Source: Nitrospirota bacterium
GTDB lineage: Bacteria > Nitrospirota > Thermodesulfovibrionia > Thermodesulfovibrionales > UBA6898
Assembly: GCA_016217695.1 (NCBI GenBank)
Contig: JACRHE010000001.1
Span: 1 to 37,018, forward strand
DNA: 37,018 bases
Reading direction: 5' to 3'
Shown here in pieces: positions 19,927 to 22,306 of this stretch. Numbering within the stretch: position 1 is the stretch's first letter; each line of letters begins with the position of its first letter. Under the pieces are notes generated by a model. The model was not told where the DNA came from. It saw only the letters and a list, made by a program, of their open reading frames with translations, and made no database searches. The position numbers and the translations under genes were made by a program.

Positions 19927-21672
19927 TCAGGGGATGGTATATAGAGTCAGCCCTTTGTCACTGGCTATCACCGGAAGGTTGAGATGCCAGTCAGCAGGCG
20001 TGAGTATGTCAGTTACCTTGAAACGGCTTCTTATCATCTGCCACTCGGCCAGGGCTCTGTTTTCCCACAAAGGCCTGTGCAGATCGGTTATGACAGCAGA
20101 GTTTTTTTGTCCGGCCGGAGGCTCTGAAAAGATGTCCAACCCGTAGACGTCCCGCAGAATAGCGTTTAATTCAGGGCCGGACTCGGGAACGTAAGGCAAG
20201 AAATCAAGCCCACCGCCGTCCAGCAATACAGGACGGCGCGTAACCATTTGTATAAGGTGAAGATCTGCGGCGGTAAGCAGCAGACCCTCCCGTTCTGAAA
20301 TGATCGCAAAAAATTGATCGTTGGTCATATTACGGAAATCCCCGGTGATCTCGTCTCCGTGAAATATAAGGTTATAGGCAGCAGGAGCGACAGTTGTCAT
20401 TGCCGTCACCAGAAGCACCAGGCCGATCGTAATTGCATGCAGTTTTTCGCGGCGCAGAGAGGCCTTTTCTGCGATGGAGCAGGCAGAAGGGTACAAAATC
20501 GTCAGCAGCGCCCCGATGCCGGCTACATAATAAAAGAGGGCCTTCAGGTCCGGAAACAGGAGGAGCAGGAGAGACCCCCCGAAAAATAGGGGCAGAGTCA
20601 GGCGACCTGTCGTGGATGAGCCTAATATGCCTATTGTCATCGCCATAAAGGCGATGTTCGCAAGATTGAAATATCTGAAAGGCATCAGGACATTCAAGAA
20701 GCTGGACTTGGGTAACTGAATGGCGGCAGCCGAAAAGACAATAGAACAGACAACGGATACCGCAAAAATGCTGCTGATCAGTCTGACTGACCGAGGTGTC
20801 GTTTTCCTCGTTATCACGGTGATGCCGATAAGGCAGTTCAGAAGAGCGATCCTTATTCCGGGTGAGTCCCAGCCCGTAATGCTTCTGTGCAGATCAAAAT
20901 TCTCTATGAAGCTGTCCAGGTACTGGCTCTTCAACTGGGTATCCAGAACAGGCAGGTCCGCAAATAACCGGTATTGATATCCGAAACTTGCAAGACCGAG
21001 AAGGCAGCCCAGCATGGAAAAAATCACGATGGAGGAGCGGTAAGTCCGAAAGGTTTCGGCGTTGAAAAAAAACGAAACCGAGATGATGATAATCATAAAA
21101 ACGCCCAGAGACGGATGCACTGCCGGTGACAGACCTGCGAGGAGAGCGCCGGTCCTGAAATTGCCGGTCCCCAGGAAGCCTGCAGTCATGAGGATATAGG
21201 AAAGTCCGAGTATTCCGTAAGAGTGGGAGGTCCCCATGAGCCAGATAGGATATGCGTGGCCATAACCGACGAGATTCAGACCATAGACGAACAGAGGGCT
21301 GATCAGCGACAGCAGATAGTCTCTGCTGAAGGAAAAGGTTACAAGATACAATGCAGCGCAGGAGACTGCACCCATGAGGCCGGCAATGAGAAGGCTTAAG
21401 CTTATTTCAGAGACCCCTGCTGCAAGGAGCAGGGCGCCGGCCTGATTCAGCAGAGACCAGACCTTTATATGGTAGAGGTACATCGGATTGTTGACGGGGT
21501 ACTGTACAATGCCTGCCAGGACCTGTCCCGTCTCCACCGGCACCTGCCATGTGGGGGGGTGGTTTCCGACAGCGATCAGAAAGCCGAAGGCGGCGGATAT
21601 GATAAGCGCCGCATATGACTTGCGGTTCCAGAGTGATTCTGCCATGGAGTTAATCCACGTTTCCTTGTCCAT
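19927..21672 (-). CDS. Multipass membrane protein of unknown function (GT-C-like topology possible)
   Basis: 581 aa with many hydrophobic segments and a C-terminal soluble tail; start ATG overlaps the brnA-like stop (TAATG). Confidence 0.82.
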   Translation of the reverse strand: MDKETWINSMAESLWNRKSYAALIISAAFGFLIAVGNHPPTWQVPVETGQVLAGIVQYPVNNPMYLYHIKVWSLLNQAGALLLAAGVSEISLSLLIAGLMGAVSCAALYLVTFSFSRDYLLSLISPLFVYGLNLVGYGHAYPIWLMGTSHSYGILGLSYILMTAGFLGTGNFRTGALLAGLSPAVHPSLGVFMIIIISVSFFFNAETFRTYRSSIVIFSMLGCLLGLASFGYQYRLFADLPVLDTQLKSQYLDSFIENFDLHRSITGWDSPGIRIALLNCLIGITVITRKTTPRSVRLISSIFAVSVVCSIVFSAAAIQLPKSSFLNVLMPFRYFNLANIAFMAMTIGILGSSTTGRLTLPLFFGGSLLLLLFPDLKALFYYVAGIGALLTILYPSACSIAEKASLRREKLHAITIGLVLLVTAMTTVAPAAYNLIFHGDEITGDFRNMTNDQFFAIISEREGLLLTAADLHLIQMVTRRPVLLDGGGLDFLPYVPESGPELNAILRDVYGLDIFSEPPAGQKNSAVITDLHRPLWENRALAEWQMIRSRFKVTDILTPADWHLNLPVIASDKGLTLYTIP

Positions 21673-21944
21673 TACATTTTTTTATGCACCTTCTCAGACA
21701 GCCAGACTTTGATAAGCGACTGGTAAGGCACATCACGCTTGTTAGCCTCGATCTTTATCTGTTCCAGGAGTGAAACCGGCAATCTGATCGATATTGACTG
21801 AGTGGACAGCTTGAGATTTGGGAAGCGTGCGCGTTCTGCCTTTGACCAGTCAAGATAATCCGTAGAGTCGTGAGTTTCCCAAAATTCGCGCTCTTCAGCT
21901 TCAGACTTGAATTGGGGGACCGGCTTAAGGTCTTTCCTGCTCAT
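21672..21944 (-). CDS. brnA: BrnA/CopG-family antitoxin-like protein
   Basis: MSRKDLKPVPQFKSEAEEREFWETHDSTDYLDWSKAERARFPNLK...SISIRLPVSLLEQIKIEANKRDVPYQSLIKVWLSEKV: CopG_antitoxin architecture with RHH. Confidence 0.85.
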   Translation of the reverse strand: MSRKDLKPVPQFKSEAEEREFWETHDSTDYLDWSKAERARFPNLKLSTQSISIRLPVSLLEQIKIEANKRDVPYQSLIKVWLSEKVHKKM

Positions 21945-22227
21945 AAATACTCCTCTCTTTGCGATGCATTGCCCGTGCGGAAATGATCCGTATTTTTGTA
22001 CCACTGCTCCGGAGAGTGAAGCTGACGTGCAACAACCGTTCTTCATTTGTCTTTCCCAGGGCATGAAATCGCGGTTCACCATGACTATGTTTCTTATCCG
22101 GCAATAACAGCAACGGCTCGTTGACAAAGACCTGCTCTGCTTCCGTTTGTGTTACGCCATGCTTTTCATTTTTTCGTGTATTGCCCGAGTCCCATTCAAA
22201 CCCTTCGATGCCCCGCAAATCTATCAC
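21925..22227 (-). CDS. brnT: BrnT-family toxin-like protein (GTG start)
   Basis: GFEWDSGNTRKNEKHGVTQTEAEQVFVNEPLLL...RFHALGKTNEERLLHVSFTLR...IRIISARAMHRKER: BrnT hallmarks; overlaps the antitoxin start. Confidence 0.88.
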   Translation of the reverse strand: MIDLRGIEGFEWDSGNTRKNEKHGVTQTEAEQVFVNEPLLLLPDKKHSHGEPRFHALGKTNEERLLHVSFTLRSSGTKIRIISARAMHRKERSIYEQERP

Positions 22228-22231
22228 GGCT

Positions 22232-22262
22232 GTATATTACAGTGATATACCAAAATTGTCAA
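22232..22262 (-). promoter_or_regulatory. brnTA promoter with overlapping palindromic operator
   Basis: Minus strand: TTGACA-N17-TAATAT; palindrome GTATATCAC-T-GTAATATAC (8/9 arm matches) at 22232-22250 covers the -10. Confidence 0.72.
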
Positions 22263-22280: not shown

Positions 22281-22306
22281 GGCAACCGGCACAGCTGCCG
22301 GTTGCC
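22281..22306. terminator. Hairpin at the 3' end of the kimA-like gene
   Basis: GGCAACCGGCA-cagc-TGCCGGTTGCC, perfect 11-bp stem; the T-rich tract lies on the plus-strand side, so minus-strand termination is uncertain. Confidence 0.55.

Follow-up and report, generated by a model that had tools for sequence, protein, structure and literature searches.

Among the closest described relatives of the locus examined here are toxin–antitoxin (TA) pairs of the cyanobacterium Synechocystis 6803, in which dRNA-seq found a distance of 0 between transcription start site (TSS) and start codon for three toxin genes, sll1651, sll1965 and ssl7039 (PMC4963859). The first of these, a DUF497/COG2929 protein, is BrnT and is paired with the DUF3680/COG5304 antitoxin sll1652; the second, also DUF497, is paired with ssl3719 (DUF4415), and the third is a RelE toxin with a gp49 domain and an Xre partner (PMC4963859). 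Both DUF497 pairs resemble the locus described below in that the DUF497/BrnT toxin gene comes first, and sll1652, as a COG5304 protein, is the same kind of antitoxin as ours. A third DUF497 toxin of Synechocystis, ssr0757, has a 45-nt leader (PMC4963859), which counts against a leaderless reading. The authors of that study remarked that every leaderless TA locus in Synechocystis, a single species, has the reverse gene order (PMC4963859).

The BrnT–BrnA pair of Brucella abortus is likewise toxin-first, with a ribbon-helix-helix antitoxin and a ribonuclease of the BrnT family, to which our toxin belongs by sequence; a point of difference is that the antitoxin of our locus falls in PF12441 and not in PF14384. 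As summarised in PMC10714953, the Brucella antitoxin and the toxin–antitoxin complex autorepress their promoter. Our search of openly readable papers turned up no start site for the Brucella brnTA operon. Of the 37 TA pairs in Mycobacterium tuberculosis that have a primary TSS, 32 are leaderless (PMC3898074), but leaderless mRNAs there account for about a quarter of all genes (PMC3898074), whereas Shine–Dalgarno (SD) sequences precede 55–87% of sampled genes in the genome studied here. Leaderless mRNAs of Sinorhizobium meliloti have only AUG starts (PMC3616915), and work cited in the same paper describes non-AUG leaderless starts as inefficient in E. coli. Given the AUG-only pattern of S. meliloti, the GTG start of our toxin gene is a point of doubt for a leaderless reading. 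The locus itself is of a known type, and a leaderless BrnT has already been mapped in Synechocystis (PMC4963859).

Here we analysed 37,018 nt of a Nitrospirota genome (contig JACRHE010000001.1), the whole of which we refer to as the window. Its minus strand carries, at 21672–22262, a two-gene operon in toxin-first order: brnT (21925–22227; 100 aa, GTG start) and an antitoxin gene (21672–21944; 90 aa, ATG start), which overlap by 20 nt such that the antitoxin ATG at 21944 lies inside brnT. The brnT product matches PF04365 with 83.7 bits against a cut-off of 34.5, covering profile positions 1–77 of 77, and among solved structures it matches one toxin (PDB 7vd7, ‘toxin’, E = 6.7e-9). Residues K22, H23, F34, R85 and E91 are conserved among 82 homologs. 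In a BrnT-like toxin of A. citrulli, residues K17, H18, F29 and E86 are required for activity (PMC10714953); in our protein, K22, H23, F34 and E91 are each shifted by +5 relative to these, a correspondence drawn from this constant shift together with conservation. BrnT would be a ribonuclease by family, and is presumably toxic.

The antitoxin, of the CopG/BrnA ribbon-helix-helix type, matches PF12441 (CopG_antitoxin, which we take to be equivalent to DUF3680) with 124.9 bits against a cut-off of 28. This is its sole Pfam match, PF14384 (BrnA_antitoxin) giving none at E 0.01, while its score against the NCBIfam model NF047399 (‘BrnA family’) is 62.9 bits, just above the cut-off of 60. The first-pass annotation had called the two genes a BrnT/BrnA-like TA pair; profile matches and comparison support the pairing, and for the antitoxin the BrnA label is the one given by NCBIfam, whereas Pfam assigns the protein to PF12441. 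We are fairly confident that the locus is a type II TA operon with the toxin first, a judgement made jointly with the explanation of its expression offered below.

A 581-aa membrane ORF (19927–21672, minus strand) begins where the antitoxin gene ends, its ATG overlapping the antitoxin stop codon (TAATG); a Pfam search with it returned no match. We considered this ORF as a third gene of the operon, but it is absent from a BrnT locus that is 80% identical to ours, and its sole relative in 27 genomes of the family (in genome G009, at 45%) is not recorded beside BrnT, so we do not count it in the module. The same genome (G000) holds further BrnT-like genes, at C131:29551–29802 (L002), C18:18354–19308 (L003, L005) and C167:44540–44740 (L004): one is intact, with 8 nt between its -10 and its start, two are weak matches lying side by side, and one contains five stops.

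On the minus strand, the -35 hexamer TTGACA (22262–22257), which agrees with the consensus at six of six positions, is followed after 17 nt by the -10 hexamer TAATAT (22239–22234) and, 6 nt beyond that, by the GTG of brnT (22227–22225). This is as the first-pass annotation had it, and comparison supports a sigma70-type promoter, the -10 being recognized by promoter scan and by its conservation in homologs; taken alone, the match is not significant (one found against 1.4 expected in a simple scan of shuffles of 1.4 kb). Read in the frame of brnT as TAA TAT ACA GCC GTG, the -10 contributes an in-frame stop, and the GTG is therefore the first possible in-frame start. From the spacing and its conservation, the TSS is predicted to be the first base of this GTG (22227), the seventh base after the -10; in Synechocystis, by contrast, the TSS on the start codon was measured, and the transcripts were called leader-less.

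The nearest downstream alternative is a TTG at codon 4 (22218–22216), a permitted start in the same frame, from which translation would begin after a leader of about 9 nt, again without an SD. The best BrnT homologs align from residue 1, however, residues 1–4 are conserved, and the first column is nearly always ATG (M1 in 84% of the 82 homologs), and we regard a start at codon 4 as highly improbable.

The two genes differ sharply in their ribosome-binding signals. The antitoxin ATG is preceded at 5 nt by the SD GAGAGGAG (21950–21957), located inside brnT, whose predicted duplex with the anti-SD has an energy of -8.6 kcal/mol as against +0.9 kcal/mol at the brnT start, which has no SD. In the 80%-identical ortholog from a related genome (L007/L036), ATG replaces GTG at identical spacing. 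One could read this replacement as the mark of a decayed or silent module, in which a toxin gene that once started with ATG now has GTG and yields hardly any toxin. Against such decay, both ORFs are intact, the key residues are kept, the operator and the SD are perfect, and GTG occupies the same place in three other BrnT loci (L053, L057, L064); we give this reading only a small chance.

The -10 also forms the right arm of a 19-bp palindrome, GTATAT-N7-ATATAC (22232–22250), which we predict to be an operator. It occurs once in the window, where shuffles lead one to expect none, and is thus significant; the exact sequence occurs only once in the 3.04-Mb genome. Among 36 non-redundant close homologs, drawn from Nitrospirota, alpha-, beta- and gammaproteobacteria, Acidobacteria and Gemmatimonadota, the exact N7 palindrome is kept in 34; in 24 of these 34, exactly 4 nt separate its end from the start codon (equivalent to a -10-to-start spacing of 6 nt), and in 33 the gap is 3–7 nt. 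Columns flanking and upstream of the palindrome carry nearly no information in the 36 homologs, except for a moderately conserved TTG (50–62% per base) in the -35 position. As far as sequence comparison can speak to it, we consider this conservation decisive against chance, and the earlier proposal that a near-palindrome over the -10 serves as operator gains support from both its uniqueness in the genome and its retention in homologs. The antitoxin would be expected to bind there and to repress its own operon.

Some relatives depart from this geometry. In L071, L074 and L075 (Rhodospirillales, Reyranella) the only start in place is a TTG that lies 1 nt after the palindrome and 3 nt after the -10, and transcription beginning at the customary distance would have its +1 on the next codon, ATT, implying either a shifted start site or a non-standard leaderless start. 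In L077 and L078 (Acidobacteria) the palindrome is present and the conserved BrnT frame begins some 40–60 nt downstream, while an ATG directly abuts the palindrome in L078.

The spacing between promoter and toxin start was then compared across 82 non-redundant BrnT loci from several phyla, with promoter likeness scored at each spacing to the start and a threshold of 7.0. We chose this profile of score by spacing; a single best-promoter call per locus was noisy and mis-chose a few starts. Averaged over the loci, the score rises to one high peak, 4.8 at 6 nt, with 3.0 as the next highest value. The threshold is reached at exactly 6 nt in 38% of the loci, whereas no other spacing exceeds 17%. Within 4–8 nt it is reached in 56% of BrnT loci versus 8.5% of 165 long ORFs from the window’s genome. 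The 6-nt peak appears both when the 52 Nitrospirota-type loci are taken alone and when the 30 from other phyla are, and plasmid copies in Variovorax, Mesorhizobium, Sinorhizobium, Rhizobium and Paracoccus have the same layout of palindrome, 4 nt and ATG. An SD is present at 16% of brnT starts versus 78% of antitoxin starts, and of 79 pairs, 73 have the stronger SD on the antitoxin (Wilcoxon p = 6e-13, a value that ignores the kinship of homologs and so overstates their independence).

Some BrnT loci argue against the leaderless reading: their toxin start lies 11–20 nt from the -10, and a few of them carry an SD (L009, L011, L023, L032, L033). In two of these, L009 and L011, where the gene order is as in the window, the longer stretch after the -10 has gained an AGGAG and a TTG start, which suggests that BrnT loci can switch their mode of initiation, leaderless in one case and SD-led in the other.

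Might brnT instead have a short but ordinary leader, with a TSS further upstream supplied by another promoter or by read-through from the permease gene, and with the 6-nt spacing reflecting no more than the packing of an operator over the promoter? The permease gene lies 89 nt upstream on the same strand, and an operator in this position does force promoter and brnT close together. Between permease gene and promoter is a hairpin (22281–22306) that probably separates the module from the permease gene, though its T-run is on the plus strand only and the strand that matters here has none. However, there is no SD before the GTG in the window, nor before the start in most homologs, and because of this a longer leader would bring no help. 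The distance to the start is also conserved apart from the palindrome, recurring at 6 nt in loci with unrelated operators: TTACA/TGTAA (L015, L016, L021), TATACT (L097, L114) and TATAAT (L026, L102). In addition, the TSSs of homologs map to the start codon (PMC4963859). We therefore find an ordinary leader unlikely.

The gene identities, promoter, palindrome, spacing, contrast in SD and conservation, all of which can be read from the DNA, would be best explained by a leaderless toxin mRNA, an SD-led antitoxin and autorepression through the palindrome. We think this account, with its predicted start site, weak toxin translation, repression and toxicity, has a good probability of being correct. 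RNA polymerase would recognize the sigma70-type promoter and start at the G of the GTG or no more than one or two bases from it. The resulting leaderless mRNA would be translated by inefficient 70S-type initiation, yielding little BrnT, while the strong SD within the end of brnT would allow more antitoxin to be made from the same mRNA. Antitoxin would thereby be in excess despite the toxin gene being first, and, alone or with BrnT, it would bind the palindrome over the -10 and shut off its own promoter. The leaderless toxin start put forward in the first-pass annotation thus agrees with the spacing, the SD contrast and the homologous TSSs, with the start site in the window being a predicted one.

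HigBA and Gp49/RelE–Xre modules share the layout of our locus, but their toxin families, antitoxins (often of the Xre type) and operators differ. We measured these and other families in the same way in genomes of the window’s class, setting starts by protein profile position rather than by promoter; HigB genes were set by exact profile-match coordinates, a home-made motif having found only 10 of 30. A promoter at 4–9 nt is seen for 90% of HigB (PF05015, n = 30) and 79% of Gp49/RelE genes (PF05973, n = 24), and a toxin SD for 13% and 8% respectively, while the second gene has an SD in 100% of cases after HigB (n = 25) and in 93% after Gp49 (n = 15). Several of these loci (L118–L147, L198–L227) have GTG starts. 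The three Synechocystis toxins whose TSS falls on the start codon come from families, BrnT and Gp49/RelE, in which we see this signal. As controls, the antitoxin-first PhdYefM family (PF02604, n = 30) has 0% at 4–9 nt, 93% at 20–45 nt and an SD in 97%, and HicA (PF07927, n = 30), mostly the second gene here, has 7% at 4–9 nt and an SD in 67%.

The first-pass annotation considered a leaderless toxin coupled to a normally initiated antitoxin an unusual dosage arrangement. On the contrary, the layout is the norm of the BrnT family, in which a spacing of 5–8 nt, an SD-less toxin and an antitoxin with a strong SD recur across phyla; the HigB and Gp49/RelE layouts and the leaderless BrnT transcripts of Synechocystis (PMC4963859) also contradict the description.

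We lean, by a narrow measure, towards the view that a leaderless toxin with a strong-SD antitoxin is a design rule common to the unrelated toxin-first families BrnT, HigB and Gp49/RelE, whereby the mode of initiation, and not gene order, would set antitoxin excess, and a given mRNA would yield proportionally more toxin under conditions that favour leaderless translation. Such a rule may be new. In the literature we found it only as the remark on one cyanobacterium (PMC4963859), and among openly readable papers, a set to which the original BrnTA paper does not belong, nothing on leaderless brnT or higB beyond that study. It draws on predictions from one class for HigB and Gp49 and from several phyla for BrnT. 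Viral contigs yielded just two relatives of HigB, of which one has a longer leader, and none of Gp49, and because they gave so few, the cross-family rule rests on one bacterial class and Synechocystis.

How antitoxin comes to be in excess in toxin-first TA operons is an old puzzle. In mqsRA the excess is achieved through a separate antitoxin promoter (PMC6918082). A leaderless toxin followed by an SD-led antitoxin would, if true, solve the dosage puzzle on one mRNA. Moreover, since some stresses favour leaderless mRNAs, toxin output would, if this is true, be tied to the state of the ribosome.
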